Positions 4,954 through 41,071 of a stretch of DNA of 43,841 bases are shown in pieces. The notes beneath the pieces were generated by a model. The model had not been told where the DNA came from. It did no database searches and saw only the letters and a program-made list of their open reading frames with translations. A program made the position numbers and the translations under genes. The stretch is from NCBI GenBank assembly GCA_023621995.1, contig JAMOAB010000147.1:1-43841 (forward strand), given 5' to 3'. This stretch comes from Bacillota bacterium (GTDB lineage: Bacteria; Bacillota; Clostridia; Caldicoprobacterales; Xylanivirgaceae). Position 1 is the first letter of the stretch, and each line of letters opens with the position of its first letter.

Positions 4954-5541
4954 ATGACTGGGAAAACACATATAGCAATAGGAATTTCAGCAGCACTGAC
5001 AATATCAATAGGACAACCGATAGAAAATCAAGTATTTTTAGTACTAGCTTCTGCAATTGGCTCTTTAATACCAGACTTAGACCATCCTAGAGGTAAGTTA
5101 AATCAAAAATTACTGCTAGTTAGTAGCAATTTTTGCAGGATATTATTCTATATATCTTTAGGTGTTGTGTCCATATATCTATCCCATATTATAGATAATA
5201 ATACTTTAAAACTCTTAGGAATAATCTTAATTCTTATAGGAATATCTAGCCATAGGAGTTTTACCCATAGCATAGTAGGGTTTCTAGCATCTGCTTCCAT
5301 AGTTAAAGTAGCTACTATAAGCTATGGATTGTCATCCATCTATTCCGGTTTTGTAATAGGATATGGACTACATTTAATAGCCGATTTTTTTAATCCAAAG
5401 GGCATACAGCTGTTTTACCCCTTAAATATGAACGTTGCATTTCCAATTACAATTAAGACGAATAGCAGCTTAGAAAAAATGCTCTTTATGCTCTTAAGCG
5501 TATATTCTGTCTGGATTTTATTTGGATATCTGAACTTCTAG
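4954..5541 (+). CDS. DUF457 (YdjM-like) integral membrane protein, putative metal-dependent hydrolase
   Basis: 195 residues from the chosen ATG. The frame also has an ATG at 4936, but AAAGGAG lies 5 nt before the one at 4954, giving the family-typical start MTGKTHIAIG. Conserved polar residues within the hydrophobic protein are His in TGKTH, SLIPDLDHPRGK after the first membrane segments, HRSFTHS in the centre, and GYGLHLIADFFNPKG later. This His/Asp set is the reason the family is annotated as membrane-bound metal-dependent hydrolase. About five membrane segments are visible. Substrate is unknown. Its stop codon lies inside the 42-bp palindromic terminator shared with bioB. Confidence 0.85.
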   Translation: MTGKTHIAIGISAALTISIGQPIENQVFLVLASAIGSLIPDLDHPRGKLNQKLLLVSSNFCRILFYISLGVVSIYLSHIIDNNTLKLLGIILILIGISSHRSFTHSIVGFLASASIVKVATISYGLSSIYSGFVIGYGLHLIADFFNPKGIQLFYPLNMNVAFPITIKTNSSLEKMLFMLLSVYSVWILFGYLNF

Positions 5542-5579: not shown

Positions 5580-6538
5580 AAAACATAACTTATCTCCTTA
5601 AATATCTTTAATTCTTCTTCCACATCTTGTCCCTTAGTGGTCAAATAATTCCCTACCAAAGCACCATTTATACCACCCATATAGGCCATCTTTTCGTATA
5701 TGCCCAATCCCTTTTCTTTACCTCCGGCCAATCTAATTATCTTTGTAGGCATTATAAGCCTAAAAAGTGCTATACTCTTTAATATTTCTTCATGCGGTAT
5801 AAGCTCAATGTTCGCTAAAGGCGTTCCCTCTATGGGATTTAATATGTTTATAGGTATGGAGTCTACGTCTAGATCTCTTATCTCAAATGCCATCTCCAGC
5901 CGCTCCTCCATACTCTCTCCCATAGATATAATACCACCACAACAGACTTTAAGCCCTGCCGCCTTTGCAGCCCTTATTGTCTTGACTCTATCGTCATAAG
6001 TATGAGTTGTACATATCTTGGAGAAAAAGTTTCGCGATGTCTCCACATTATGGTGATACATAATGACACCAGACTCCTTCAGGGCATGTGCCCTATCCTC
6101 ATCAAGACTACCGAGGGAGGCACATAGCTTTAAATCTGTCTCTTTGTTCAATAGGGTATATATATCGAGTACCCTGTCAAACTCCCTGTCTGTTAGCCGC
6201 TCTCCACTTGTAACTAGACAAAACCTATGGGCTCCTGAGTTTTCTATCTCTTCTATACGCCTTAATACTGCGTCATCATCTATAAGTTCATATACTTCCA
6301 CTCCACATGAATGATGGGCTGATTGGGAGCAGAACTTACAATCCTCAGAACAGTGTCCAACCTTGGCAGCCATAATGGAACAAAGATCTATCCTATCCCC
6401 TGCATTCAGCTTCCGTACTCTATTTGCTAAATTTAAGAGTGATATTATATTATCTCCCTCAAGTTTTGAAATTTCCAGTGCCTCATTCCAAGTTATACCT
6501 CTGCCTTCTAATATCTTTTTTTCTATATTCTTAAGCAC
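5576..6538 (-). CDS. bioB: Biotin synthase
   Basis: Radical SAM enzyme that inserts sulfur into dethiobiotin in the last step of biotin synthesis. The radical SAM cluster motif C-x3-C-x2-C is seen in GHCSEDCKFCSQ, followed by VTSGERLTD and YHHNVETS, both typical of BioB, and NILNPIEGTPL near the end. Length (320 residues) is normal. The frame opens with a GTG at 6547, but the AGAGG site fits better with the GTG at 6538 (MLKNIEKK). It overlaps the end of bioY by 8 nt, so the two are translationally coupled. bioA, bioD and bioF are absent here, so the organism may import a precursor such as dethiobiotin or carry those genes elsewhere. Confidence 0.95.
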   Translation of the reverse strand: MLKNIEKKILEGRGITWNEALEISKLEGDNIISLLNLANRVRKLNAGDRIDLCSIMAAKVGHCSEDCKFCSQSAHHSCGVEVYELIDDDAVLRRIEEIENSGAHRFCLVTSGERLTDREFDRVLDIYTLLNKETDLKLCASLGSLDEDRAHALKESGVIMYHHNVETSRNFFSKICTTHTYDDRVKTIRAAKAAGLKVCCGGIISMGESMEERLEMAFEIRDLDVDSIPINILNPIEGTPLANIELIPHEEILKSIALFRLIMPTKIIRLAGGKEKGLGIYEKMAYMGGINGALVGNYLTTKGQDVEEELKIFKEISYVF

Positions 6539-7091
6539 TTTGACCACCTCTCATCCTAACGCGGCTACAAACTTCATTTGCCAACCATGAAGCAGCAACC
6601 ATCTTGGCTATATCCCAAGGCAAAAATACAAGACACCCACTCATCAATACCTTTGAAAAAGAAGTAGGAACTTCATTTACATATTTGAGAATTATATAGA
6701 GATGGGATACTCCAAACAAGTAACTTATAAAAAGCCCAACAAGTGAAGCCTTTAAATACTGTCTAAATGAAGATCTCTCTAATCTTTCGACCATCCTTCC
6801 TACCACAAAGGCTGCAATGGCAAAACCTATTAGATAACCAAAAGTAGGATGGAATATATATTGTATTCCGCCCCCCTTAGTAAATACAGGCACACCAATT
6901 AAACCAAGTGCTATGTAGACAAGTTGTGATGCAAGGCCCATACGTGAACCTAATAACAATCCCGCAAGTATTACAAAAAAAACTTGTAAGGTAAAAGGTA
7001 CAGGCGGTAGGGGAATCTTTATAAATGCTCCTACTGCCGTTAGAGCTGCAAATATAGATATTAAGATCATTTTGTATGTATTATTTCTCAT
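6531..7091 (-). CDS. bioY: Biotin ECF transporter substrate-binding component
   Basis: 186-residue membrane protein with about six hydrophobic segments. BioY signatures are IKIPLPPVPFTLQVFFV near the N-terminus, LLLGSRMGLASQLVYIALGLIGVPVF, and GGGIQYIFHPTFGYLIGF. It captures biotin and works alone or with the EcfA/A'/T energising module, which is not in this window. The start has an AGGAGA site. It is the first gene of the bioY-bioB operon and is directly preceded by a BirA operator, so it should be repressed when biotin is plentiful. Confidence 0.95.
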   Translation of the reverse strand: MRNNTYKMILISIFAALTAVGAFIKIPLPPVPFTLQVFFVILAGLLLGSRMGLASQLVYIALGLIGVPVFTKGGGIQYIFHPTFGYLIGFAIAAFVVGRMVERLERSSFRQYLKASLVGLFISYLFGVSHLYIILKYVNEVPTSFSKVLMSGCLVFLPWDIAKMVAASWLANEVCSRVRMRGGQSA

Positions 7092-7111
7092 AAAAACATC
7101 TCCTCATAACC

Positions 7112-7145
7112 ATTGTAAACTTCGTTTCATATCCCGGTTTACAAT
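7112..7145 (-). promoter_or_regulatory. BirA operator of the biotin operon
   Basis: Perfect inverted repeat ATTGTAAAC (7112-7120) / GTTTACAAT (7137-7145) separated by 16 nt. This is the Firmicute BirA arrangement (TTGTwAAC-N14-16-GTTwACAA). It starts 1 nt downstream of the -10 hexamer, so bound BirA would block initiation. Confidence 0.88.
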
Positions 7146-7146
7146 G

Positions 7147-7175
7147 ATTATATGATGGACTTCTACTCTTGTCAA
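7147..7175 (-). promoter_or_regulatory. Consensus sigma-A promoter of bioY-bioB
   Basis: On the minus strand TTGACA (7175-7170), exactly 17 nt and TATAAT (7152-7147): a perfect match to the housekeeping consensus, held in check by the BirA operator just downstream. Confidence 0.9.
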
Positions 7176-7239
7176 CCAAAATATTTCTTAAGTTTACATA
7201 TATTTTACCAACTGTATAAATATCAGTAGTTTAAACATC

Positions 7240-7262
7240 AAAAAATGCGCCCCAACGGCGCA
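7240..7262 (-). terminator. Terminator after the DUF89 gene
   Basis: Minus-strand hairpin TGCGCC / GGCGCA (7246-7262, 5-nt loop) followed by a T6 run; 25 nt after the DUF89 stop. Confidence 0.8.
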
Positions 7263-7287
7263 CTTTCCATATAATTGCATATAAAGG

Positions 7288-8151
7288 TTATTCCTTCATA
7301 AATATTCCTTCAAACTTTTTCATTCCAAATTGCTCTACAAAAAGATCACATTTACATAAGAATATATAATATATATTCTTACCACAACCTAATAATGTCT
7401 CAAAGTTTCCCTGTCCCTTTGCAATTATGAGATTACCTTCATCCATTGACCTTATTGTCTCCTCGTTGACCCTCTTTATATCAGTACCTGGAATATCTGT
7501 TCCATTTTGGACTATATCTCCGTAGTAATCTAATCCTACTTCCACTGCATCTTCCACTGTCACATCGTTTAAAGCTGGTCTTCCTCTAACTACTATATCA
7601 ATATCTATATCCTCATTTAGCTCCTTAATGACCTTCATAAACAACTTGTCAAATACAACCTCACCCGCATTATCCACAATATAGCATAATCTCTCAGCAA
7701 CTAATAGCTCTTCTCTAAACTCCTCATACAGTTTAGTATCAATCTCTTGCTCCAATGCCGTATCTATAATCTCAGTCAATATATCGTCATCTACTTCATC
7801 CATGGCACCAAAATCTATAAAGTTACCTACCATTGCATATTTAAGTCCTGCAAGAAGTTTATCCTCTGCATTATCTATACTTTCCCAAATATCCCTTTCT
7901 ATTGATAGCATTTTTTTATTATATTCCTTCTTTTCTTCTTGAAAGAGATCTTCAACACCTACCTTATCCTTCAATATCCTCATTACTTTTGAGGTTAAAA
8001 ATGGTGCAGTTGCACCATCATCATGGGAGCTAAGCTCCTTTAAAATCTTTTTTATAAACTTCAGCCGCTCTCCTTCGTTGTCCATATATTGACAAAACAT
8101 ATCATCTGCCTTTTTAAGAATACAATATATACATTCCACAGAAGTATTCAT
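7288..8151 (-). CDS. DUF89 family protein (ARMT1-like damage-control phosphatase fold)
   Basis: 287 residues. DUF89 proteins are metal-dependent phosphatases thought to hydrolyse damaged phosphometabolites. Visible signatures are the N-terminal CIYC pair (residues 7-10) typical of the prokaryotic subfamily, GNFIDFG, the acidic DNAGEVVFDK where the metal-binding Asp/Asn lie, VVRGRPALNDVTVEDA, and AKGQGNFETL. Substrate cannot be told from sequence. The start overlaps the stop of the DUF134 gene as ATGA, so the pair is one translationally coupled operon ending at the hairpin at 7246. The coupling to a DUF134 regulator suggests a link with the metal/Fe-S-related genes upstream, which is inference. 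Confidence 0.85.
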   Translation of the reverse strand: MNTSVECIYCILKKADDMFCQYMDNEGERLKFIKKILKELSSHDDGATAPFLTSKVMRILKDKVGVEDLFQEEKKEYNKKMLSIERDIWESIDNAEDKLLAGLKYAMVGNFIDFGAMDEVDDDILTEIIDTALEQEIDTKLYEEFREELLVAERLCYIVDNAGEVVFDKLFMKVIKELNEDIDIDIVVRGRPALNDVTVEDAVEVGLDYYGDIVQNGTDIPGTDIKRVNEETIRSMDEGNLIIAKGQGNFETLLGCGKNIYYIFLCKCDLFVEQFGMKKFEGIFMKE

Positions 8152-8516
8152 ATACCTCGTCCCCTCCTATGTCTAGTTCTATAACATCTATTACATCTTT
8201 CTGTTTCTCCTAGCTCACTGCACAGTCTATAGTCACCGCCCTCTATCTTGATTGTCTTTCCATTGACCATACAATCTGCAAGTTTTCCCCTAGCTATCTC
8301 ATATAACCTTTGAACTGTAGACCTGCCTACCCCCATAGCCTCACCACATTCTTCCTGGGTAAAACCCTCATAATCAATAAGCCTTATTGTCTCAAACTCT
8401 TCAACAGACATTTCTATAACGTCAGACATGACTATATCAGTATTCTCCAAATAGGGACCAAAAGTCTTTATATCAGGTTCCCTACAAACCCTCTTCCTCT
8501 TTCTTGGTCTTGCCAT
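8148..8516 (-). CDS. DUF134 family DNA-binding protein (first copy)
   Basis: 122 residues. It begins MARPRKRKRVCREPD, the usual basic start of DUF134, followed by a sigma-70 region-4-like helix-turn-helix: IRLIDYEGFTQEECGEAMGVGRSTVQRLYEIAR. The C-terminal part has a CNRCYRTRH pair of Cys in a basic tail. DUF134 proteins are predicted transcriptional regulators that co-occur with NifX-like and MinD-ferredoxin proteins, as here. It is the first gene of a two-gene operon with the DUF89 gene. A second member lies at 8999-9436. Confidence 0.88.
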   Translation of the reverse strand: MARPRKRKRVCREPDIKTFGPYLENTDIVMSDVIEMSVEEFETIRLIDYEGFTQEECGEAMGVGRSTVQRLYEIARGKLADCMVNGKTIKIEGGDYRLCSELGETERCNRCYRTRHRRGRGI

Positions 8517-8597
8517 ATAACTATCACACTCTCTAAATTAGATTTTCTATATATATATAATATTGAAATACTTAAGGGGGATCAAGTACATTAAAAA

Positions 8598-8627
8598 ACA
8601 GATAGTGGGCGTACACCCACTATCTGT
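8598..8627 (-). terminator. Terminator after the DUF5320 gene
   Basis: Perfect 12-bp stem ACAGATAGTGGG (8598-8609) / CCCACTATCTGT (8616-8627) with a 6-nt loop, followed on the minus strand by a T-run. It ends the DUF5320 transcript and insulates the DUF134-DUF89 operon. Confidence 0.88.
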
Positions 8628-8628
8628 A

Positions 8629-8898
8629 CTACTCTATTTCCTCTAACTCTCTTTTAATAGCCTCTAACTCCTCTTCTAAAAATTCCTTCTGCCTGAGGAG
8701 GATATCCCGCTCCTCTTCTAGGCTTATCCTGTAAGCCTGTGGATCAGTATAGTTATAGGGAAGTCTATCAAATCCCCTCCTATACCCTAGTCCCCTCCTA
8801 CCAAAAGGACGGAAATATCTATAACCACTACAATATCCAAAACCTCTTCCACTCATCGGTCCCATTCCCATTGGACCTGTACCATCTAACCTTGGCAT
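8629..8898 (-). CDS. DUF5320 family small protein
   Basis: 89 residues. The N-terminal half is a low-complexity Gly/Met/Arg/aromatic stretch starting MPRLDGTGPMGMGPMSGRG, the hallmark of the family, and the C-terminal third (from about residue 57) is a charged coiled coil rich in Glu and Leu. Function is unknown; the family travels with NifX-like, MinD-ferredoxin and DUF134 genes in anaerobes. The start has an AGGAGG site 8 nt upstream. It has its own promoter with a dyad operator related to that of the NifX/MinD operon, so the two are probably co-regulated. Confidence 0.85.
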   Translation of the reverse strand: MPRLDGTGPMGMGPMSGRGFGYCSGYRYFRPFGRRGLGYRRGFDRLPYNYTDPQAYRISLEEERDILLRQKEFLEEELEAIKRELEEIE

Positions 8899-8918
8899 AA
8901 CATCAACCTCCTAAATAG

Positions 8919-8974
8919 TTATGGGCATATACCCACTACCTATAGTATATACTCTTTTGGGTATATGTCAATAA
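8919..8974 (-). promoter_or_regulatory. Promoter and dyad operator upstream of DUF5320
   Basis: Minus strand: TTGACA (8971-8966), 16 nt, TATACT (8949-8944). Two inverted 16-nt half-sites surround it: one at 8959-8974 (minus strand TTATTGACATATACCC, covering the -35) and its inverted partner at 8919-8934 (plus strand TTATGGGCATATACCC), just downstream of the -10. The halves agree at 13 of 16 positions and resemble the pair at 11916-11975. A repressor bound to both would cover the promoter. Confidence 0.65.
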
Positions 8975-8998
8975 CTTTTTAGGGTCTATAGTGGATTT

Positions 8999-9436
8999 TT
9001 ATTCTCTTTCACACCATTTTCTACAAAACTCCGCCTTTTTACTACATATAACATTTTTAGAGCCACATGTGGGACAACTATATTTATCACGCTCAAAATT
9101 CACCTGATATATAGATTTACAATCTAGACATCTAAATTTACAATGTTTTGTAGTATAATAGCCTCCTCCTATTCTAATACTCCTGCCCTCTACTAAAGCT
9201 GTAGACACCTTCTCCCTTGCACTGTCAATTATATTTTGAAATGTTTGCCGTGACACGTTCATCCGCTCAGCACATTCTTCTTGGGTGAGCTTTTCTATAT
9301 CTCTAAGCCTCATAGCTTCAAGTTCTTCTATATTTAAAGCTGTCTCCTCCATCTCACATTTAGGCTTTCCCCAAGGTACGAAATAGGTATCCTCTGGGAA
9401 GAATTCTACCCTTCTAAACTTTTTTGGTCGTGCCAC
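8999..9436 (-). CDS. DUF134 family DNA-binding protein with zinc-ribbon tail (second copy)
   Basis: About 145 residues. The start is taken as the GTG at 9436 (MARPKKFRRVEFF), which parallels the other DUF134 protein and sits better behind the AGGGGGTG site than the GTG at 9442. The helix-turn-helix reads MRLRDIEKLTQEECAERMNVSRQTFQNIID. Unlike the first copy, it has a C-terminal zinc-ribbon-like region with CKFRCLDC, CPTCGSKNVIC and a final CRKWC. It is the last gene of the operon that starts with the NifX-like gene at 11883 and is a good candidate for the regulator binding the shared dyad operators. Confidence 0.88.
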   Translation of the reverse strand: MARPKKFRRVEFFPEDTYFVPWGKPKCEMEETALNIEELEAMRLRDIEKLTQEECAERMNVSRQTFQNIIDSAREKVSTALVEGRSIRIGGGYYTTKHCKFRCLDCKSIYQVNFERDKYSCPTCGSKNVICSKKAEFCRKWCERE

Positions 9437-9460
9437 ACTCACACCCCCTGCAATTGAAAA

Positions 9461-9817
9461 TTAGTCATTACAATGCCCTTCATGGGCATGTTCTCTACAT
9501 ACACTCCCTGTAGATTCAAGCTCTCCCCGTATATATTGCTCTACCACATCATCGCACAGTCCCTGTGCTCCTACTACAACATCTATCCCATTTTCACTGA
9601 ACAGTTCTTGTGCCATTGCGCCCATACCGCCTGCCACTATTACATCGGTACCTAGATCCTTTAAAAATACTGGAAGAAATCCTGGTTTATGCCCTGGATT
9701 TTCTACAAAATTCTTAGTTTTTACCTGCTTGCCGTCTACCTCATATACTGTAAAACCCTCACAATGTCCAAAATGTCCACTCACATATTTACCTTCACTT
9801 GCAATTGTTATCTTCAT
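9461..9817 (-). CDS. NifX/NifB-C family protein (dinitrogenase Fe-Mo cofactor biosynthesis domain), copy 2
   Basis: 118 residues from the ATG at 9817 (MKITIASEG), chosen because AGGAGG lies 10 nt upstream; the frame runs open to 9862 but that would overlap the preceding gene. The fold's signatures are present: SGHFGHCEGFTVYEVDG near the start, VIVAGGMGAMAQELF in the middle, and VVVGAQG followed by a His/Cys-rich tail (CREHAHEGHC). Such proteins bind Fe-S or Fe-Mo clusters in nitrogenase assembly, but in non-diazotrophic anaerobes their role is unknown. No nif structural genes are in the window. Same operon as the two MinD-like ATPases. Confidence 0.88.
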   Translation of the reverse strand: MKITIASEGKYVSGHFGHCEGFTVYEVDGKQVKTKNFVENPGHKPGFLPVFLKDLGTDVIVAGGMGAMAQELFSENGIDVVVGAQGLCDDVVEQYIRGELESTGSVCREHAHEGHCND

Positions 9818-9831
9818 CTTTTCTATTCCTC

Positions 9832-10680
9832 CTAAAAAATCAAACTTTTTATTGTTAACCACATATCTTTAATAGCCTTAGCCGCACTACTTCCCTCATA
9901 ATAGACTATTGGCTTTAATTCATGTATAGATTCCATTACCAGGTCATCAAAAGGGATCTTACCTACTAGTTGTAGCCCCTCTTCTTCTACAAAAGCCTCT
10001 ATCTCCTTGCCCATATCTTCATTGATATCATACTTATTTATACATACCATTGGATCTATGTCAAAATGGCGTGATAACTTCACCACCCTCTCAAGATCTG
10101 AAAGACCAGATTGAGTTGGCTCTGTTACAACAAGTACAGCATCACTTCCAGTTATAGAGGCGATAACCGGACATCCTATACCTGGAGATCCGTCTATTAC
10201 TGTCAATGTCTCGTCATCTGAATACTTACGTGCAATCCTGCGAAGTAATGTTATGAGCATTCCTGAACCATCACTGCCTATCTCCATCTCTGCCCTCGAA
10301 AGAATGCCATCATCTAATTGGGTTGTATACACATCCCCATCCTTTTCTGGCTTTAACTCTATGGCGTCTTGGGGACATATAAGAGTACAGGCCCCACATC
10401 CTTCACAGGCAAGGGGCATTACTCTAAAGTCCTCTATGGCGTCAAATCTGCAGACATGTTCACAGCTACCACATCTAGTGCATATATTTCCATCAATATA
10501 TGCTACTTTACCGCCGTAAAAATCCTCCCTTGCTATATCCTTCCCCTCATAGTAGAGATGGAGGTTGGCTGCATCCACATCACAGTCTACCCTAGTTACT
10601 TCCTTTGCAAGTTCTGAGAGGGCTGCTGCTATTGTTGTCTTTCCTGTTCCGCCTTTTCCACTGAGTACAACTAAGTCCAC
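9832..10680 (-). CDS. MinD-family ATPase with inserted two-cluster ferredoxin domain (copy 2)
   Basis: 282 residues. The deviant Walker A SGKGGTGKTT begins at residue 7. A ferredoxin insert follows at about 60-115 with two 4Fe-4S motifs, CTRCGSCEHVC and CEGCGACTLICP. The rest is MinD/Mrp-like, with VIDGSPGIGCPVIASITG and VTEPTQSGLSDLERV. This domain order matches COG1149. Such proteins are thought to load or move Fe-S clusters, or to couple ATP hydrolysis to electron transfer, but none is well characterised. The GTG start lies inside the end of the preceding gene (10-nt overlap) with GGGAGGTG upstream, so the two copies are translationally coupled and may form a heterodimer. Confidence 0.9.
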   Translation of the reverse strand: MDLVVLSGKGGTGKTTIAAALSELAKEVTRVDCDVDAANLHLYYEGKDIAREDFYGGKVAYIDGNICTRCGSCEHVCRFDAIEDFRVMPLACEGCGACTLICPQDAIELKPEKDGDVYTTQLDDGILSRAEMEIGSDGSGMLITLLRRIARKYSDDETLTVIDGSPGIGCPVIASITGSDAVLVVTEPTQSGLSDLERVVKLSRHFDIDPMVCINKYDINEDMGKEIEAFVEEEGLQLVGKIPFDDLVMESIHELKPIVYYEGSSAAKAIKDMWLTIKSLIF

Positions 10681-11501
10681 TCTAGCACCTCCCCTAGCCC
10701 CATTGCTAAATGGTCAAAAAGGGCTCTATTATCTTGAGTAGCATATAGCATCTCACCTTTTGAATAGGCAAGGGCAATTGAATCACTATATGGAACTGTT
10801 CCTATTATTTCAATTTGTCTATCCTTGCAATAGGATTTAACTATATTTTCTCTGCCATCATCTTTGTTTATTATTACGCCAAAAGGAATAGAAAACATAT
10901 CCACAAGCTCTACTGCCCTCTCTAGATCGTGGAGTCCAAATTTAGTAGGCTCTGTTACCAGTATTGCACCGTCTGCATATCTAAGTGATGTTACCACATT
11001 ACATGAAGTTCCAGGTGGACAGTCTATGATGTTTAGCCCGTCATCTAAATTCCTAAGGATACTCCTTATGACAGGTACAGCCATTGGTTCACCTATATTT
11101 AATATTCCCCTACTACAGTTTATACCATGGCCCATGCCTTTTTCTATTCTGCCTACTTCTCTCTTTCCATAGCCTAATGCTCCATACTTACATACTATTT
11201 CACAGGCGCCACAACCGTGGCATAGCTTTTCAAAGAGCAATATACCATTACCTGCACTTGCAAGGGCATTAAATTGACACACATCTACGCATACACCACA
11301 ATCTGTACACTTATCCTCATCTATTACAGGATATTCTACCATCACCTCTTCTGTATTGACTATATTGGGCTTTAGAAATAGAAAACCGTTTGGCTCTTCC
11401 ACATCACAGTCAATATATTTTGCCCCTAGGGCCAAGGCAAGGTTTGTAGAGATTGTAGTCTTCCCCGTTCCTCCTTTTCCACTTAACACTGCTATATTCA
11501 A
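10671..11501 (-). CDS. MinD-family ATPase with inserted two-cluster ferredoxin domain (copy 1)
   Basis: About 276 residues. The start is placed at the TTG at 11501 (MNIAVLSGKGGTGKTT), because GAGGAGG lies 8 nt upstream and the preceding gene ends at 11521; the frame is open to 11534 but that would overlap. The deviant Walker A is followed by the ferredoxin insert with CTDCGVCVDVC and CHGCGACEIVC, then GINCSRGILNIGEP, IIDCPPGTSCNVVTSL and VTEPTKFGLHDLERA. It is a paralogue of the gene downstream, which it overlaps by 10 nt. The two ATPases probably act as a pair with the NifX-like proteins on either side. Confidence 0.9.
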   Translation of the reverse strand: MNIAVLSGKGGTGKTTISTNLALALGAKYIDCDVEEPNGFLFLKPNIVNTEEVMVEYPVIDEDKCTDCGVCVDVCQFNALASAGNGILLFEKLCHGCGACEIVCKYGALGYGKREVGRIEKGMGHGINCSRGILNIGEPMAVPVIRSILRNLDDGLNIIDCPPGTSCNVVTSLRYADGAILVTEPTKFGLHDLERAVELVDMFSIPFGVIINKDDGRENIVKSYCKDRQIEIIGTVPYSDSIALAYSKGEMLYATQDNRALFDHLAMGLGEVLEWT

Positions 11502-11520
11502 ATTGTCTTCCTCCTCTAAG

Positions 11521-11883
11521 TCAATGTCCTCCATGATGGGCTGGACCTGACTCTTCTATCTCTAAAAGCTCTCCACTTCCATACTTCTCAAGAACATCTC
11601 TTATTACCATCTCATGGCATTTATATGCCTTAATGCCCGATTTTTCTATAAGCTCAAATGCATTGGGACCAAGATTGCCTGTAATTATAACTTCTACCCC
11701 TTCATCTATGAGCTGCTGAGATGCTGCAATTCCAGCACCTCCTTCAGAGGTAAGCCCTTTGTTTTCTACAGTCTCCACTTCTCCCGTCTCAGTGTCCTGT
11801 ATCACAAAATACTGACACCGTCCAAATCTCTTATCAAGCATGCTGTCTACTGTCTGTCCCGTTGCAGAAATTGCAATTTTCAT
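11521..11883 (-). CDS. NifX/NifB-C family protein, copy 1 (first gene of operon)
   Basis: 120 residues from the ATG at 11883 (MKIAISATGQTVDS) with GGAGGGAAGTAT upstream; the open frame continues to 11925 but would read into the operator. Family features are DKRFGRCQYFVIQD, VIITGNLGPNAFELIEKSGIKAY and a short His-rich end (GPAHHGGH) that could bind metal. It heads the five-gene operon NifX-MinD/Fd-MinD/Fd-NifX-DUF134. Its function outside nitrogenase assembly is unknown; a cluster-carrier role for the ATPases is plausible. Confidence 0.88.
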   Translation of the reverse strand: MKIAISATGQTVDSMLDKRFGRCQYFVIQDTETGEVETVENKGLTSEGGAGIAASQQLIDEGVEVIITGNLGPNAFELIEKSGIKAYKCHEMVIRDVLEKYGSGELLEIEESGPAHHGGH

Positions 11884-11915
11884 ATACTTCCCTCCTCTTT
11901 TTGTGTTCTTCCTTA

Positions 11916-11975
11916 TTATTGGCAAATGCCATTAATATAATACTTCTGTTTTTTGTTCTTGTCAAATGCCAATAA
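11916..11975 (-). promoter_or_regulatory. Promoter and dyad operator of the NifX/MinD operon
   Basis: Minus strand: TTGACA (11965-11960), 17 nt, TATTAT (11942-11937). A palindromic site TTATTGGCAAATGCCATTAA (11916-11935) lies just past the -10, and an inverted related site, minus strand TTATTGGCATTTGACA (11975-11960), covers the -35. All four half-sites at this locus and at 8919-8974 share the core TTATtGgCAtaTgcc, so one regulator probably controls both promoters. Confidence 0.68.
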
Positions 11976-11985
11976 CCAATTTGTA

Positions 11986-12021
11986 TAAAAATAGCCGCCT
12001 AACTCCATTATGAGTTAAGCG
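11986..12021 (-). terminator. Terminator after the MetV-NuoG fusion gene
   Basis: Minus-strand hairpin CGCTTAACTC (12021-12012) / GAGTTAGGCG (12005-11996) with one mismatch, 6-nt loop, followed by ATTTTTAT. Confidence 0.8.
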
Positions 12022-12042
12022 ACTCTACAGACTATTTTGATG

Positions 12043-13260
12043 TTATGACTGAAAGATCAGCTCTTCCTTCCAGTCCTCCCCTGTATAGTGGGCTATCTTT
12101 TCAGTTATTGCTCCAGTGGGACATGCAAATACACACGCAAGGCAAGTAACGCAGGGACTCTTAGCAAAATTCTTGTTTGCGCCGGCAACTACAACAGTCC
12201 TAAAGCCCCTATTTACAAAGCCTAAATTATCTTGACATGCTATCTCCCTGCATGCCCTTACACACCTTCCACACAGTATACATTTATTGGGATCATAGAG
12301 TAGCACAGGGCTAGTAGTATCCACAGGCATCTTTTCTTTGTCTTGCTCAAATCGAGATTCTTTGATTCCAAATTTTCGTACCAAGCTCTGAAGCTCACAT
12401 GCACCTGCAATGACTGGATTGCCCTTATGACAAGTCAAACAATTGTGCTCATGGGACGCCAAGAGCAATTCAAGTAATATTCTCCTGTTGTGATTTAACT
12501 CATCATCCTCTGTTATAATCTCCATACCATCCCTTACATGTACCGCACATGCAGGAGTAAACTCCCTCTCTCCCTTTACCTTGACTAGACATAACCTACA
12601 GTTGGCATCTGGCGTAAGATCAGGTGTACTACATAGATGGGGTATCTCAATACCACATTCCATGCAAGCCTCCATTATAGTCAAACCCTCTTTTACCCTA
12701 TACTCTGCCCCATTTATACTTACGCTCACCAAATTCTCGCCGCTGTCATCTCTAGCTTCATCTCTACCAAAGAAGGTTGGATAAAGACTTAGTTTTTCTG
12801 CAATCTCTGGATAGGAATAGCCCTCATCACTCTGTTCAAGTCCAGTAGACTCAAATGGTGCAGTAAGTACTGGACCCCTGTCCATTGTAAAGTTACCAAC
12901 GCCTAATGTCTTAACCACCTTGATTACCTTTTTGTCTTTGAAAACTGCCTCTGCAACTTCATATCCATCTTCACAGGATAGACATATTATAGCTGTGGCC
13001 TCTTCAAATAGCTCCCTCTTATTTGGATGATCTCTGTGTTGTTCGGTCAGAGAATACATACACGCAATGCCCACCAGTTCCTTGCCTATTACCTCATATC
13101 CATCTGCTGTGAGCATCTCTTCCAATAGTACCATATTGTCATAGCCACCTATGCCACAGAATTTGATACATGTATTACAGCTCCAAAGTACAATCTTATC
13201 GTCTTTACTGAGCTTATCTTTAAGCTCTGCATAACTTATATCTCTAAGCGATATAATCAT
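12043..13260 (-). CDS. Fusion of a MetV-like (MTHFR C-terminal) domain with a NuoG/HydA-type N-terminal Fe-S module
   Basis: 405 residues. Residues 1 to about 160 form a MetV-like domain (methylene-THF reductase C-terminal family): WSCNTCIKFCGIGG, VGIACMY and ICLSCEDG. From about 175 comes an electron-wire module. It holds a plant-type 2Fe-2S domain (CGIEIPHLC, CRLCLV, ACAV), a His-Cys 4Fe-4S motif (HEHNCLTCHKGN) and two 4Fe-4S motifs (CILCGRCVRACREIA and CVTCLACVFACPTGA). This is the arrangement at the N-terminus of HydA and NuoG, but no H-cluster or molybdopterin domain follows. It would pass electrons from NuoF to the partner site. It directly follows a stand-alone MetV-like gene (stop and start are adjacent) in the nuoE-nuoF operon. 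The reaction cannot be named from sequence. Confidence 0.88.
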   Translation of the reverse strand: MIISLRDISYAELKDKLSKDDKIVLWSCNTCIKFCGIGGYDNMVLLEEMLTADGYEVIGKELVGIACMYSLTEQHRDHPNKRELFEEATAIICLSCEDGYEVAEAVFKDKKVIKVVKTLGVGNFTMDRGPVLTAPFESTGLEQSDEGYSYPEIAEKLSLYPTFFGRDEARDDSGENLVSVSINGAEYRVKEGLTIMEACMECGIEIPHLCSTPDLTPDANCRLCLVKVKGEREFTPACAVHVRDGMEIITEDDELNHNRRILLELLLASHEHNCLTCHKGNPVIAGACELQSLVRKFGIKESRFEQDKEKMPVDTTSPVLLYDPNKCILCGRCVRACREIACQDNLGFVNRGFRTVVVAGANKNFAKSPCVTCLACVFACPTGAITEKIAHYTGEDWKEELIFQS

Positions 13261-13761
13261 CTATTCCACCCCCAGTTCTATAGGTATCTGCTCTTTCTCC
13301 ATCTTGTTCTTTCCGTCAGATCCTATGGGATATTCTTCACCTAGTTTATAACTATGCCGCTCGTAAGGCATTGCAATCTTTACAATACCTTTATTTGTAT
13401 CTGCCACTATAAGTCCTATATTATCCACTGTCTCAACCACTTTAATATGGGGATAATTTCGCCTAATATTGGATACCCCTGCTGTACATGCTAGTGAAAC
13501 TACTGTATTTACTTCAGGAGATAACTCTACTATGACTAGATAAGGCTCCATACACGCTATGGGTAGCATAATGCCATCTTTTACGTTGTATCCATCTTCC
13601 CTCAGCTTAAGTGCCAGCTCCCGCATCTTATCTGGTCCGCCGGCGCCGGAGACCCTTATACACGTATTACAGCCAATTATGGTAATCACATCGCTATTCC
13701 TATCTAGCTGGCTGGTTAATTCCTCATACTCTAATGAATTACTAAAAATCACAAGTCTCAC
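13261..13761 (-). CDS. Stand-alone MetV-like (MTHFR C-terminal family) protein
   Basis: 166 residues. It is a paralogue of the first 160 residues of the next gene: GCNTCIRVSGAGGPDKMREL, LPIACMEPYL and VSLACTAG keep the CNTC, AC and C-x2-G positions. MetV in acetogens is a small Cys-rich partner of methylene-tetrahydrofolate reductase and links it to electron carriers. No MetF gene is in this window, so the role here may be in building an electron-transfer complex rather than in folate chemistry. It sits 8 nt after nuoF and abuts the fusion gene. Confidence 0.8.
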   Translation of the reverse strand: MRLVIFSNSLEYEELTSQLDRNSDVITIIGCNTCIRVSGAGGPDKMRELALKLREDGYNVKDGIMLPIACMEPYLVIVELSPEVNTVVSLACTAGVSNIRRNYPHIKVVETVDNIGLIVADTNKGIVKIAMPYERHSYKLGEEYPIGSDGKNKMEKEQIPIELGVE

Positions 13762-13769
13762 CCCTCTAT

Positions 13770-15485
13770 CTATTCAACTATCTGTTCATATTCATCCCTA
13801 AAATATTTTAGCGTACTTAAAACTGGATTTGATGCAGTCTTTCCAAGTCCACAGAGAGCAGTTTCCTTTACCACATGTGCCAAATCTTCGAGTATATCTA
13901 TATCCTCTTTCGTTCCGTTACCACTGCATATCTTGTCCAATATATTCACCATCTGCCTTGTACCTTCCCTACATGGTAGGCACTTTCCACATGACTCGTC
14001 TGAGCAAAATTTCACAAAGAATCGTGCAATATCTACTGCTGATTTGTCTTCATCTATTGCTATCATTCCACCTGAACCCATTATAGTACCTAACTCTTTA
14101 AGAGGTTCGTAATCTAGAGGCGTATCTAAATACTCTAACGGAAGACAGCCGCCTGATGGACCACCGAGCTGTACAGCCTTAATGTTCTTGCCATTCTCTG
14201 GACACATTGCCATCTCCTCTATGACCGTTCTCACCGAAGTTCCTATTGGCACCTCAACACATCCTACATTTACTATATCTCCAGTTATGGAGAACACCTT
14301 AGTTCCCTTACTCTTTTCAGTACCTATACTGGCAAACCACTCACTGCCATTTAATATTATTGGTGCTATATTTGCCAAAGTCTCCACATTATCTATGATA
14401 GTAGGCTCCTTAAATAGTCCCTTTTCTGCTGGATAGGGAACCTTAAGCCTCGGATTACCCCTGCCACCTTCTATTGATCTTATAAGGGCGGTCTCCTCAC
14501 CACAGACAAATGCTCCTGCTCCTTCATATACCTCAATGTCAAAATCGAATCCTGAACCAAATATATCCTTTCCCAAAAGTCCGTAGCGCCTAGCTTGAGA
14601 TATTGCCCTATTTAACACTTCAACAGCCAATGGATATTCTGCCCTACAATATATATAACCCCTTGTAGCTCCAATTGCCTTACCTGCCACTATCATACCT
14701 TCAATTACCGAATGGGGATCGCTCTCTAACACACTTCTATCCATATATGCACCTGGATCGCCTTCATCTGCATTACATATTATATATTTGTCCTTTGAGT
14801 CTGCCTTTGAAGCAAACTTCCACTTAAGTCCAGTTGGGAATCCAGCTCCTCCCCTGCCCCTCAAACCAGACTCTGATACAGTTTTAATAATATCTCCTCG
14901 ATCCATCTCTCTAAGTGCCCTATATGCTGCCCTATAGCCGTCCCTAGCAATATAGTCATCTATCTTAAAGGGATCTATAACCCCCCTATTTCTCATGACA
15001 ATCTGTTTTTGACGACTGAAATAAGGTATCTCTTCTATACCATCTATAGAATCATCTATAACTTCTTGACCCTCAATCCTACCATTGTTTTTGAGCCTTT
15101 TCTCCATATCGCATTCTCTACCCCTTGCAAATGCGTATTTACTCACAACCGTTCCATCTTTTATATGGGTATCGAATATTTCAGCTGCCTTACCAGCATC
15201 TATATATTCATATATAATCGGCTCCTGGTTCACCACCTCAACTGTTACAAGTGGCTCCCTAGAACATATTCCCATGCATCCTGTAGTATCTAATTTCACA
15301 TCCCTTGCCTTAGATTCCCTTACAAGGCCTTTGAATGTGTCGAATACATCCTTTGCCCCAGATGCTATACCACAAGTACCCATGTGCACTGTTACTCTCA
15401 CTCTCTTATCATCTTCGCTTAGTTGGCTTTTCTTAAGCGTCTTAATTTTTATATCCTCTAGCATCGCTAAGTCTTTAACTATCAA
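13770..15485 (-). CDS. NuoF-like NADH-binding flavoprotein subunit
   Basis: About 571 residues. An N-terminal thioredoxin-like 2Fe-2S domain (MGTCGIASGA, GCMGICSREP) is followed by the NuoF core. This has GRGGAGFPTGLKWKF (NADH/FMN site), CNADEGDPGAYMDR, EVYEGAGAFVCGEETAL, and SCGKCLPCREGT with a later Cys in ETALCGLG for the 4Fe-4S cluster. Many clostridial HydB/HndC homologues end with an extra two-cluster ferredoxin domain; this one stops at FRDEYEQIVE and lacks it. It would oxidise or reduce NAD(H) at FMN. The frame opens with a GTG at 15494, but that codon is part of the GGGGTG site, so the TTG at 15485 (MIVKDLAML) is preferred. Confidence 0.92.
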   Translation of the reverse strand: MIVKDLAMLEDIKIKTLKKSQLSEDDKRVRVTVHMGTCGIASGAKDVFDTFKGLVRESKARDVKLDTTGCMGICSREPLVTVEVVNQEPIIYEYIDAGKAAEIFDTHIKDGTVVSKYAFARGRECDMEKRLKNNGRIEGQEVIDDSIDGIEEIPYFSRQKQIVMRNRGVIDPFKIDDYIARDGYRAAYRALREMDRGDIIKTVSESGLRGRGGAGFPTGLKWKFASKADSKDKYIICNADEGDPGAYMDRSVLESDPHSVIEGMIVAGKAIGATRGYIYCRAEYPLAVEVLNRAISQARRYGLLGKDIFGSGFDFDIEVYEGAGAFVCGEETALIRSIEGGRGNPRLKVPYPAEKGLFKEPTIIDNVETLANIAPIILNGSEWFASIGTEKSKGTKVFSITGDIVNVGCVEVPIGTSVRTVIEEMAMCPENGKNIKAVQLGGPSGGCLPLEYLDTPLDYEPLKELGTIMGSGGMIAIDEDKSAVDIARFFVKFCSDESCGKCLPCREGTRQMVNILDKICSGNGTKEDIDILEDLAHVVKETALCGLGKTASNPVLSTLKYFRDEYEQIVE

Positions 15486-15499
15486 ATATATCACCCCGC

Positions 15500-15991
15500 T
15501 TACTTATATTGTTCTAATATTTTATCAATATCTTGGATTTTAACCTTTCCATAGACTTTCCCGTCTACAACCATAACTGGTGCCAGCCCACAAGTTCCAA
15601 AGCATCTGGCCTGTTCATAGGTAAATCTTCCATCCTCTGTACTCTCCCCAGGCTTTATATGGAACTTCTTTTCTATAAACTCCCCTATCTCCTTCCCACC
15701 TTTTACATAGCAAGCAGTACCTGCACATACTTGAATTCTGTGCCTAGCCCTAGGCTCCATTGTGAAATAAGAATAAAATGACACCACACCATAGATGTCA
15801 TTTTCAGGAATACCAGTTCTTTCGGATATCATCTCTTGCACAGCCACGGGAATAAAACCAAGCAGCTGTTGAACCTCTTCTAGTATAGGAATCAACTTAG
15901 ACCTAGTAGTACAGCTATCGATTATTTTGTCTAGTTCCCTTATTTGTTCTTCACTGAAGTTATAACTATCTAGAGTTATAGAGAGTTCCAT
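15500..15991 (-). CDS. NuoE-like 2Fe-2S subunit
   Basis: 163 residues with the NuoE thioredoxin-like fold. The four cluster ligands are seen in CAGTACYVKGG and CFGTCGLAPVM. The N-terminal helical part contains LLGFIPVAVQEMISERTGIP and VYGVVSFYSYF, both typical. It partners NuoF in NADH-linked complexes. It is the first gene of the operon nuoE-nuoF-MetV-like-fusion; the gap to nuoF is only a few bases. Two Rex-type operators lie upstream, so expression should rise when NADH/NAD is high. Confidence 0.93.
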   Translation of the reverse strand: MELSITLDSYNFSEEQIRELDKIIDSCTTRSKLIPILEEVQQLLGFIPVAVQEMISERTGIPENDIYGVVSFYSYFTMEPRARHRIQVCAGTACYVKGGKEIGEFIEKKFHIKPGESTEDGRFTYEQARCFGTCGLAPVMVVDGKVYGKVKIQDIDKILEQYK

Positions 15992-16053: not shown

Positions 16054-16071
16054 TTGTTAATCTTTTAACAG
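16054..16071 (-). promoter_or_regulatory. Rex operator, proximal
   Basis: TTGTTA-ATCTTT-TAACAG matches the Rex consensus TTGTTA-N6-TAACAA with one mismatch in the last base. It is 63 nt upstream of nuoE. Confidence 0.75.
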
Positions 16072-16169: not shown

Positions 16170-16187
16170 TTGTTAAATTTTTAACAA
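16170..16187 (-). promoter_or_regulatory. Rex operator, distal
   Basis: TTGTTA-AATTTT-TAACAA is a perfect Rex box. With the proximal site it points to NADH-responsive control of the nuoE operon. Confidence 0.85.
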
Positions 16188-16495: not shown

Positions 16496-16534
16496 AAAAA
16501 AAATGAGCCCACAGTTTAAATAGGCTCATTTTTT
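16496..16534 (-). terminator. Terminator after the DsrE-like gene
   Basis: Stem AAAAAATGAGCC / GGCTCATTTTTT (16498-16534, 13-nt loop), with A/T runs on both sides, so it may work in both directions. Confidence 0.85.
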
Positions 16535-35835: not shown

Positions 35836-37433
35836 TAGTAACTACATTACTGCTATTACTGCTGTCAGCCCTATTTCAATTCTACTATAGATGCAATTAT
35901 ACCAATCAACAACATTATTATATCCAATATCATAACACATATTTCAATTCTACTATAGATGCAATTATACACGGTGGCGAATGGGATGAAGTGACCAAAG
36001 AATACACATTTCAATTCTACTATAGATGCAATTATACAGTCCTTATGATGAGCTGGTGATAGAGGCGTTAGAAAATTTCAATTCTACTATAGATGCAATT
36101 ATACCCATTCTTCGTGATGATTTTCTTCTATCTGTTCTCTATTTCAATTCTACTATAGATGCAATTATACGCTCACACACTTGTCGTCCTTCAGGTACAT
36201 ATTCACATTTCAATTCTACTATAGATGCAATTATACCATAATTGGTATACTCTAGATAGGTAATACTCTCGTATTTCAATTCTACTATAGATGCAATTAT
36301 ACAAGTAAAAGCTAAAGTAAATGAAGTATTCCCTAATAATTTCAATTCTACTATAGATGCAATTATACCTTCCATCTAACCCCTCCCTACCTCACTGGCT
36401 CTTCTATTTCAATTCTACTATAGATGCAATTATACTTGATAAATAGTTGAACTATATTTCCTATAATACATTTCAATTCTACTATAGATGCAATTATACC
36501 AAGACAGAAACCAAACCACAATCAAAAAAGACATATTTCAATTCTACTATAGATGCAATTATACGTTCTACTGCCTCTTGTAGCTGGTCATCTAGTGTTA
36601 AATTTCAATTCTACTATAGATGCAATTATACTTCGATATTCTCCTCCGCTAAAATGGGGGTCCCTGCATTTCAATTCTACTATAGATGCAATTATACCCG
36701 TCTGTATCTATCAAGGTTGGCTGCCGCCATAGCATTTCAATTCTACTATAGATGCAATTATACCAAACAACAATGAAAGATTTTATGGATCCTTCAAAGG
36801 AATTTCAATTCTACTATAGATGCAATTATACGATATCTTGAAGGTCTAGAGCTAGATGGGATACTAGATTTCAATTCTACTATAGATGCAATTATACGAG
36901 GAAGTGTTATAGAGGAGGGTAGCTATGGACAAAGATTTCAATTCTACTATAGATGCAATTATACTTAAAGAAGTAAGGACCAAGGATGCTTTATTAAGGC
37001 TATTTCAATTCTACTATAGATGCAATTATACTTTATCACCTTTTTTATACAACATTCCTAAGTTATCAATTTCAATTCTACTATAGATGCAATTATACTA
37101 GTCTGTATTTCTATATTACAAACCAAAGTCAGTCTAATTTCAATTCTACTATAGATGCAATTATACTATCGGTTATATCTGCTTGTGTAATTGTTGTTGC
37201 TCCATTTCAATTCTACTATAGATGCAATTATACTATTCTAATGTCTATTGTTATTCCCCACTTTTTACTAGATTTCAATTCTACTATAGATGCAATTATA
37301 CTTAGTCTGTCCCTATACCTTTGTCTTTCCTCTCTTTTATTTCAATTCTACTATAGATGCAATTATACCTTTCTAATAAAGCTAAGGCCCAAGCTAAGGC
37401 TGCATTTCAATTCTACTATAGATGCAATTATAC

Positions 37434-37469
37434 CTCACCTACACCTATTACTTGTGGGCCATCAAATAT
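37434..37469 (-). repeat. Spacer of duplicated pair A (older copy, 36 nt)
   Basis: Plus strand starts CTCACCTACACC and ends CATCAAATAT. Same protospacer as 37764-37800; the high-coordinate ends match exactly, but this copy is 1 nt shorter at the low-coordinate end. Confidence 0.9.
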
Positions 37470-37763
37470 ATTTCAATTCTACTATAGATGCAATTATACT
37501 CTCTAACTTTTAAATCTGATGTGATACTTCTAACCATTTCAATTCTACTATAGATGCAATTATACGCAAATTTTTCAGGCTTTCCATCCGCAACTTCAAC
37601 TATTTCAATTCTACTATAGATGCAATTATACATGGGGTAGAGTAAAAATCAATCCAAATGACACTGAATTTCAATTCTACTATAGATGCAATTATACAAG
37701 GTCAATTCTCATACTATCCTCAACCTTCTCGTAATTTCAATTCTACTATAGATGCAATTATAC

Positions 37764-37800
37764 CCTCACCTACACCTATTACTTGTGGGCCATCAAATAT
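37764..37800 (-). repeat. Spacer of duplicated pair A (newer copy, 37 nt)
   Basis: Same as 37434-37469 with one extra C at the low-coordinate end. The minus strand can be read as IFDGPQVIGVGE, which may be phage protein, unverified. Confidence 0.9.
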
Positions 37801-38960
37801 ATTTCAATTCTACTATAGATGCAATTATACTCTGCCCCTTTCATACCTCTATTAGCTAGTATTCCTATTTCAATTCTACTATAGATGCAATTATACTCGG
37901 CGATATATTCAGCTCTCTCCCTGTCTTCTTTGGTATTTCAATTCTACTATAGATGCAATTATACCATATACTCCAAAACCTAATGACAATCCAATTACAA
38001 TATTTCAATTCTACTATAGATGCAATTATACAATAATTTACAAGCAATGTTAACAATAACAACAGACAATTTCAATTCTACTATAGATGCAATTATACGT
38101 TATATAGTAGTTTTAAGTTACTTTCCAACCTATTATTTCAATTCTACTATAGATGCAATTATACCCGTCTAACCTATAGACTTCTATATCGAAGTCATTA
38201 TTTCAATTCTACTATAGATGCAATTATACTTGGCCTTATACAGGCTCTAACAATATCACTTTTATAAATTTCAATTCTACTATAGATGCAATTATACCTT
38301 GCTGACACTTTTGTTGACAACCTACTTAAAAATATTTCAATTCTACTATAGATGCAATTATACTGTTTTTTCAACGCGATTTTTAATATACCTAATTCAA
38401 TTTCAATTCTACTATAGATGCAATTATACAAGGGGATCGAGAACCACCTTGTAAAACTGCCGGTAATTTCAATTCTACTATAGATGCAATTATACCCGAT
38501 TAAAGGTACGGTTAATCTAGCTAAAAAAGGATTTCAATTCTACTATAGATGCAATTATACCCCATTAAAATTTTTGTGGGTTGGCTTCCAGGTATGAATT
38601 TCAATTCTACTATAGATGCAATTATACTTTTCTAATTGGTAAGTATCTTAATTGTGGATCTGCATTTCAATTCTACTATAGATGCAATTATACCTGATGT
38701 GCTTACGTGTTCTCCACTCTCTATATCAATGATTTCAATTCTACTATAGATGCAATTATACGAAGAAGCTCAAGCCGACATGGAACACCCCAGCCCTATT
38801 TCAATTCTACTATAGATGCAATTATACTGGTTCTCCATCTGCTATTTGTAGATACAGTCCGATATTTCAATTCTACTATAGATGCAATTATACACTAATT
38901 TTAGTTTTGAAAATGGGGTGCCTATGACGGATTTCAATTCTACTATAGATGCAATTATAC

Positions 38961-38996
38961 TGAAATCCTTTTTTCATCTTAGACCAATGGTTTTCT
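38961..38996 (-). repeat. Spacer of duplicated pair B (older copy, 36 nt)
   Basis: Plus strand starts TGAAATCC and ends GGTTTTCT. Same protospacer as 41034-41071, sharing the high-coordinate end. Confidence 0.9.
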
Positions 38997-41033: not shown

Positions 41034-41071
41034 TATGAAATCCTTTTTTCATCTTAGACCAATGGTTTTCT
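41034..41071 (-). repeat. Spacer of duplicated pair B (newer copy, 38 nt)
   Basis: Same as 38961-38996 with two extra bases (TA) at the low-coordinate end. The minus strand can be read as ENHWSKMKKGF. Confidence 0.9.

Follow-up and report, generated by a model that had tools for sequence, protein, structure and literature searches.

What might a NuoEFG-type module do when its operon encodes no recognizable catalytic subunit? This question is raised by a four-gene operon on a 43,841-nucleotide stretch of DNA (the whole stretch analyzed, hereafter the window; contig JAMOAB010000147.1 of assembly GCA_023621995.1) from a Bacillota bacterium of the Xylanivirgaceae. Four minus-strand open reading frames (ORFs), with intergenic gaps of 5, 8, and 0 bases, encode NuoE, NuoF, a 166-aa MetV-like protein, and a 405-aa protein in which a MetV-like domain is fused to a NuoG-like half. 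This subunit make-up, proposed in a preliminary description from the sequence alone, was borne out by ORF, Pfam, and profile searches. We lean, with limited assurance, toward a Rex-controlled complex that would oxidize reduced nicotinamide adenine dinucleotide (NADH) and whose MetV-like heads would pass electrons to an acceptor encoded outside the operon. The genes and domains are:

15500–15991, minus strand: nuoE-like gene (BfuC/HydC-like), 163 aa, thioredoxin-like [2Fe-2S] protein (Pfam PF01257, 2Fe-2S_thioredx, E 5e-46)
13770–15494, minus strand: nuoF-like gene (BfuB/HydB-like), 574 aa, with N-terminal [2Fe-2S]-type, FMN/NADH, and N3-type [4Fe-4S] parts (Pfam PF01512, Complex1_51K; PF10589, NADH_4Fe-4S)
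13261–13761, minus strand: stand-alone protein resembling the N-terminal half of MetV (MetV-N), 166 aa (sequence and profile searches, AlphaFold2)
12043–13260, minus strand: MetV-N/NuoG fusion, 405 aa (ORF, Pfam, NCBIfam, PDB, and profile searches)
12847–13260, minus strand: MetV-N-like domain of the fusion, about residues 1–138 (profile and alignment)
12091–12732, minus strand: NuoG/HydA-type Fe-S domain of the fusion, about residues 177–390 (Pfam PF13510, PF10588, PF00037)

The gene set is rare but conserved

Seven genomes carry the operon: G000 (the window), G003, G047, G402 (locus L012), G403 (L013), G404 (L014), and G648 (L034), a set that spans identities down to about 48%. The gene order, nuoE-nuoF-stand-alone-fusion, is kept in all seven, and none of the seven operons shows a catalytic gene. 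A profile search at E 1e-12 found the operon in 3 of 391 genomes of the class; among 150 relatives of G404 only G404 itself was recovered, and among 98 relatives of G403 only G403 and G648. Two peptide patterns run against an 84,980-species collection, a method that reaches close relatives only, returned three loci (L012–L014). On these searches, the four-gene set is rare but conserved. Two copies are damaged or incomplete: in G047, nuoE is cut by the contig end and the fusion gene is split in two frames (L010, 9888–11106), and in the G402 copy (L012, about 5990–9629) nuoE is broken, nuoF contains a gap, and the fusion is truncated.

Both MetV-like modules correspond to the N-terminal half of MetV

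Neither module is visible to Pfam. The 166-aa protein matched no Pfam or NCBIfam family, and residues 1–182 of the fusion matched no Pfam family apart from a chance sigma-70 hit (E 0.2). A single-sequence search with the 166-aa protein, however, gave matches in 4 of 99 related genomes. Three of these are carriers; the fourth is G005, in which the matched sequence (E 1.1e-5) forms the first half of a MetV encoded ahead of metF. Among 964 ORFs, a profile built solely from the stand-alone proteins matched 14 MetV proteins (E 4.1e-9 to 2.6e-5); against 964 shuffled ORFs it gave no hit at E up to 1. A profile of the fusion N-terminus retrieved the same MetV proteins, the weakest at E 7e-4. Both profiles were made without any MetV row, the loci themselves having been gathered with a profile that included one, and the MetV identity of the matched proteins rests on their long matches to the G005 MetV. 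Judged by these profiles, the likeness to MetV claimed in the preliminary description is real, but it is limited to the N-terminal half, whose four cluster cysteines are kept. DUF5981, which corresponds to residues 112–205 of the G005 MetV, was found in G005, in none of the seven carrier genomes (some of them incomplete metagenome-assembled genomes), and in none of the window proteins.

The conserved cysteines suggest what the two modules might do. Four (31, 34, 70, and 92) are invariant in all seven stand-alone proteins, and five (28, 31, 35, 67, and 96) are invariant in the MetV-N domains of the five intact fusions, a count that leaves out the truncated L012 and the split G047. In an AlphaFold2 model of the stand-alone protein (8 sequences, mean predicted local distance difference test score, pLDDT, 81.6), the four cysteines lie at or just past the ends of strands 25–31, 59–66, and 86–90, as placed from the listed secondary-structure elements rather than from coordinates; such a placement is what a cluster site would need. 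The fusion was modeled poorly (mean pLDDT 54.4). In the PDB, neither the MetV-like parts nor the G005 MetV found more than chance sequence matches. Foldseek found no match to the stand-alone model at E ≤0.001 (best 6.2e-3), and VIA-align returned a periplasmic binding protein (Z 9.7, 95 residues, root-mean-square deviation [rmsd] 2.6) tied with Dph2 (Z 9.3, 88 residues, rmsd 2.2), matches that to us indicate no more than a common alpha/beta fold. The MetV-like proteins look like cluster carriers, and nothing supported the earlier suggestion that they might hold the substrate site.

In a tree of these domains (midpoint root, long branches), the stand-alone and fusion domains cluster together apart from MetV (99/99) and fall into two sets (94/98 and 93/86), a topology that fits one early duplication as their source. 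Elsewhere the MetV-N domain keeps different company: of 18 other loci that encode it (L043–L060), 16 lie beside metF, L057 encodes an RnfC2-like fusion that also matches the C-terminal half of MetV, and L059 is seemingly unrelated.

That company raises the possibility that the operon serves as the electron donor of a MetF encoded elsewhere, in a split version of the X-type methylene-tetrahydrofolate reductase (MTHFR). In its favor, a search for MTHFR gave one match in each of six carriers (G648 not among them), but always on another contig or far from the operon and never in it. The scores are 256–295 bits in five carriers, where the proteins are short stand-alone types, and 119 bits in G047, where the match lies in a 599-aa frame. 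A metH-like gene (named from its start) lies near the MTHFR gene in four of the five loci read (G000, G003, G404, and G047, not G402), and the best PDB matches of the G000 protein are stand-alone MTHFRs. Because the MTHFRs are of the stand-alone type or lie near metH-like genes, and DUF5981 is missing from all seven carriers, a MetF complex is unlikely, and we consider a split X-type enzyme of this kind very improbable. The preliminary description had held that an operon travelling with metF or hydA would be part of a known enzyme; in the ORF listings of the seven carrier loci neither gene lies in or beside the operon, G003 and G047 being unreadable upstream of nuoE, so this condition left the proposal standing.

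The fusion protein ends without a catalytic domain

The second half of the fusion is more readily classified. Residues 177–388 match the Pfam families Fer2_4, NADH-G_4Fe-4S_3, and 4Fe-4S, which predict one [2Fe-2S], one A2-type [4Fe-4S], and two ferredoxin-type [4Fe-4S] clusters, and residues 176–389 match HydA1 (PDB 8a6t_A, E 7e-42). The cysteine ligands of this half are invariant in the five intact fusions. The protein ends at residue 405 and covers only positions 1–208 of the 571-position hydrogenase model. As first described, it has no H-cluster, molybdopterin, or other active site: searches of Pfam and NCBIfam matched it to no catalytic family, H-cluster and pterin families included, and no third-substrate site was seen. 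The H-cluster domain that the A subunit of a HydABC [FeFe]-hydrogenase carries is thus lacking. NuoE retains its four cysteines in the five carriers aligned.

NuoF keeps bifurcation-type residues and lacks the ferredoxin arm

NuoF itself is best matched by subunit B of a NiFe hydrogenase (PDB 7t2r_B, E 8.1e-186; residues 31–570 to 5–523 of 597). Its bit scores against NiFe-HydB (7t2r, 622), HydB (7q4v, 585), and NfnB (9n5u, 582), all B subunits of bifurcating enzymes, exceed that against the complex I chain (2fug, 414), which places it, by sequence, as kin of the bifurcating HydB/BfuB proteins. In a tree of 22 NuoF rows, the operon NuoFs make up one side of a branch (100/100); this tree left out the L012 copy (L079, L085), the partial or overlapping L080, L086, and L093, and two rows missed by the motif filter, L089 and the arm-bearing 596-aa paralogue L081.

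All six operon NuoFs aligned end after the N3 domain and lack the C-terminal two-cluster ferredoxin arm (the B3/B4 domain), confirming the earlier observation that the protein stops before this domain of its closest solved relatives. The alignment also included 16 full paralogue sequences (one from G001 and 15 from carriers), of which 14 carry a C-terminal CxxxxC motif and two ferredoxin-type clusters, including the second NuoF copy of the window genome (L078); L082 and L092 do not. A cysteine common to all 16 paralogues (as in DNCMVD) is missing from the operon NuoFs, which read DKSAVD, DKSALE, or DKSVVD. We take this cysteine and the CxxxxC pair to be ligands of the zinc hinge, which are given as three Cys and one His, without numbers, in PMC9499530. 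Separately, L082 (G047:C60) is a 997-aa frame in which a NuoF-type protein runs on, at the position of the arm, into another domain that by eye resembles a glutamate-synthase-type FAD/NAD(P)H domain.

PMC7311640 names residues by which bifurcating beta subunits can be told from non-bifurcating ones; at these sites all six operon NuoFs have Ala/Met, Phe, and GGPSG, the last being the only region in which the SLBB domain is evident. The paralogue rows agree except L092, from the carrier G404, which shows the non-bifurcating pattern of Thr/Lys, Tyr, and GGSSG; positions were assigned by motif, in an alignment without Thermotoga maritima HydB. All six operon NuoFs share a new cysteine (497 in the window NuoF) five residues ahead of the N3 motif. 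In the NuoFs of G403 and G404 the third N3 cysteine is missing (CGKCIPG), and the new one may possibly replace this ligand.

The combination of a bifurcation-type flavin mononucleotide (FMN) site with a missing arm is the most unusual point of the complex. The B3/B4 domain occurs in all characterized bifurcating [FeFe] hydrogenases and is absent from non-bifurcating multimeric NAD-dependent ones, and the HydB arm is held essential for bifurcation in the HydABC family (PMC9499530). The definition of Bfu enzymes calls for four BfuB domains, including a C-terminal 4Fe-4S domain (IPR017896), and classes homologues without those clusters as non-bifurcating (PMC9304861). The operon encodes the FMN, SLBB, and NADH_4Fe-4S domains of BfuB, a BfuC, a BfuA with Fer2 and 4Fe-4S domains, and the residue signatures; it lacks the C-terminal 4Fe-4S domain of BfuB (IPR017896, B3/B4). 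Because NuoF has no such domain, the predicted enzyme is, by the published definition, not a Bfu enzyme. Of the earlier proposal of an electron-bifurcating group with a new partner module, the new module stands and the membership finds no support. The three retained residue signatures point the other way, which leaves bifurcation unlikely.

A different design could nevertheless bifurcate or confurcate electrons, with the stand-alone MetV-like [4Fe-4S] protein replacing the B3/B4 arm in trans and docking ferredoxin while the other MetV head serves a third partner. In its broadest form, an FMN core of HydB/HydC kinship would have exchanged its mobile two-cluster arm for separate MetV-like heads, and ferredoxin or another low-potential carrier would dock on a stand-alone protein. 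In favor of such a design, NuoF keeps Ala/Met, Phe, and GGPSG where L092 has Thr/Lys, Tyr, and GGSSG; the stand-alone gene directly follows nuoF, and MetFV is able to accept electrons from reduced ferredoxin (PMC8515935). Yet no third-substrate site was found, and we judge this design unlikely.

Rex-like sites precede nuoE in most carriers

To return to the favored NADH-oxidizing complex, the region upstream of nuoE suggests how it might be regulated. Two palindromes resembling the Rex operator were found there by motif scan:

16170–16187: Rex operator-like palindrome, TTGTTAAAAATTTAACAA on the minus strand, exact to the consensus used, 178 nt before nuoE
16054–16071: second Rex-like palindrome, CTGTTAAAAGATTAACAA on the minus strand, one mismatch

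With up to two mismatches allowed, the whole window contains three matches against a mean of 0.64 expected, a number reached in 1 of 100 shuffles; the third match (42050) sits inside a CRISPR array. Sites of this quality occur in 4 of 5 complete nuoE leaders and in 2 of 122 other ORF leaders, in a set of 127 leaders from ten sources, taken from mechanically called ORFs of at least 150 aa that are not all genes. A site with two mismatches is also present in the leader of the broken L012 nuoE, bringing Rex-like sites to 5 of 6 testable carrier leaders. Shuffles of the leader that did as well, of 2000 each, numbered 0 for the window, 3 for G003, 74 for L012, 108 for G404, and 51 for G648. For Rex control, what would count is this pattern across carriers and not any single weak site.

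The Rex consensus used was compared with PMC5886521 and PMC6391272, the latter of which gives TTGTGAANNNNTTCACAA as the overall consensus; a literature search for the exact consensus site returned no match. Near-identical predicted sites lie ahead of adhE and hfsABCD in Thermoanaerobacterium (PMC5886521), and the Rex regulon of Caldicellulosiruptor includes hydrogenase and pyruvate:ferredoxin oxidoreductase genes (PMC6391272). PF06971 (Rex-type) is present in all seven carriers, but also in 7 of 14 control genomes, as befits a widespread family. Collectively, the leaders point to an operon that would be induced at high NADH, as would fit an NADH-consuming complex.

Boundaries and neighbors of the operon

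Two terminator-like hairpins flank the operon:

11993–12024, minus strand: hairpin 3' of the fusion gene, with a stem of 13 bp and then a T run (–20.1 kcal/mol, z –5.0)
16498–16534, minus strand: hairpin 3' of the upstream DsrE-like and 2-oxoacid oxidoreductase genes, 15-bp stem and T run (–18.3 kcal/mol, z –6.6)

A consensus scan for promoters and terminators found sites no more often than in shuffles (terminators: 2 in the region against 2.3 expected) and did not list the 16498–16534 hairpin, so the terminator calls rest on folding energies. With hairpins at both ends, the transcription unit most likely consists of just these four genes.

Upstream of nuoE, on the same strand, lie two subunits of a 2-oxoacid:ferredoxin oxidoreductase (POR) and a DsrE-like gene (its match scores under the Pfam cut-off). 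This arrangement had suggested a link between POR and the complex, and POR-like genes (named from sequence by eye) also occur about 7 kb away in G047. The 16498–16534 hairpin, however, stands between the two sets of genes, nuoE has its own leader, and no POR was seen by eye beside L012, L013, L014, or the G648 stretch. A POR partnership is unsupported, and we regard it as extremely unlikely.

Flanking genes, named by eye unless matched by a search, vary among carriers. Glycosidases and a sensor kinase flank L012, and transporters flank the operon of G648. In G003 bioY-bioB directly adjoin the operon; in the window they are farther away, separated from it by a gene cluster at 7288–11925. We presume this cluster to consist of DUF134-like, NifX-like, and two MRP/ferredoxin ATPase-like genes; it looks inserted, or the gene order rearranged, because bioY-bioB come straight after the operon in G003. 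The downstream flank in G047 encodes rubrerythrin and an AhpC/1-Cys-type peroxiredoxin. L013 (3300–4983) and L014 (3760–5362) share a compact cassette, oriented opposite to the operon, of a CMD/AhpD-family protein, an 80-aa biotin/lipoyl-domain protein, and a lipoate ligase.

These neighbors suggest that the complex could be a reductase for peroxide or disulfide partners, with lipoyl, AhpD, rubrerythrin, or peroxiredoxin proteins as the substrates of its MetV heads; MetFV can draw electrons from thioredoxin, though slowly (PMC8515935). Such genes, however, lie beside the operon in only three of the seven carriers, and those of L013 and L014 differ from those of G047. AhpD had no match in G000, G003, G047, G402, or G648, and lipoate ligase none in G648, which rules against either as a universal partner. 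We consider a dedicated reductase of this type decidedly improbable. The lipoyl and peroxide-defence proteins are nonetheless the only lead to an acceptor, and within the favored scheme our best guess is that a detoxification protein (lipoyl/AhpD-type, rubrerythrin, or peroxiredoxin) accepts the electrons.

No NuoA–D or NuoH–N was recognized by eye among the ORFs listed near the operons; this was not a genome-wide search, and N-modules can be encoded apart. No riboswitch of C1 metabolism reached the gathering score in the seven sources. A cobalamin riboswitch (80.5 bits) lies at L034 11017–11186 in G648, between the operon and ATP-binding cassette transporter genes. The window also holds a large CRISPR array (35873–43708) with 118 exact copies of a 30-base repeat, and no cas genes were recognized by eye among the ORFs listed for positions 5000–43841.

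A model for the complex and its relatives

In the model that we favor, Rex would repress the operon, and high NADH would switch on expression of a soluble NADH-oxidizing complex. NADH would reduce FMN on NuoF. From there electrons would run through the Fe-S clusters of NuoF and NuoE and of the NuoG-like half of the fusion, reach the [4Fe-4S] cluster of the fused MetV-like domain, and continue to the stand-alone MetV-like protein. This last protein would be the head at which electrons leave the complex or at which a separately encoded redox protein or enzyme docks. Because the HydB-type ferredoxin arm is gone, the complex as assembled would not bifurcate. NADH modules joined to MetV domains have precedents in RnfC2 (PMC8760232) and in the X-type NuoEFG-MetFV (PMC8515935).

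Several observations weigh against this model. No acceptor was found. The bifurcation signatures, kept in 6 of 6 NuoFs, would be unneeded by a plain NADH dehydrogenase. In the fusion, the His at position –4 relative to the first cysteine of the A2 cluster, which we take to be a canonical ligand, is not conserved and is Arg, Gln, or Asn in G403, G404, and G648. Neither of the two G403 leaders tested contains a Rex site (1357 of 2000 shuffles were as good for the leader upstream of the AhpD gene), and the single Rex-like sites of L012, G404, and G648 are individually weak. Lastly, the broken or split copies in G402/L012 and G047 may mean that the function is dispensable or that the assemblies are poor.

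Comparison with known systems sets the operon apart from each of them. It shares with Bfu (HydABC; PMC9304861) the BfuC subunit, the BfuA-type Fe-S domains, the FMN/SLBB/N3 core of BfuB, and the residue signatures, but differs in having no B3/B4 arm, a MetV-N domain on the BfuA-like subunit, an extra MetV-like subunit, and no recognized third-substrate site. As in the X-type MTHFR (NuoEFG plus MetFV; PMC8515935), a NuoEFG-type module is joined to a MetV domain; here there is neither metF nor the C-terminal half of MetV, and there are two MetV-N modules, one of them fused to the NuoG part, a fusion that the X-type may also have. Measured against the MetVF-type MTHFRs generally, the operon has the N-terminal cluster domain of MetV and lacks a clustered metF and DUF5981. 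RnfC2 of type III MTHFR (PMC8760232) likewise has a MetV domain ahead of an electron-transfer domain and NADH as donor, but it is MetV plus RnfC and works within a MetF complex. The wolfei Hyd1ABC and Syntrophus aciditrophicus HydAB (PMC7311640) share an NADH-linked beta subunit without the C-terminal arm; they have an H-cluster and non-bifurcating residue signatures, neither of which is present here.

In the open-access literature searched, partly in excerpt, with subscription papers and preprints outside the search, neither a MetV-NuoG fusion nor this four-gene set is described, and the excerpts of PMC5736913, PMC6305446, PMC5039349, and PMC6085454 contain no description of the set. Within that literature, the gene set is undescribed, and it is built wholly from known parts.

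The operon separates the two halves of MetV and conserves the N-terminal half without MetF. As a natural variant that keeps the bifurcation-type residues of the FMN site without the arm, it offers an evolutionary test case of the role of the arm. Were the unlikely case of bifurcation with an exchangeable arm to prove true, MetV domains would be general plug-in electron heads, beyond methylene-tetrahydrofolate reductase.

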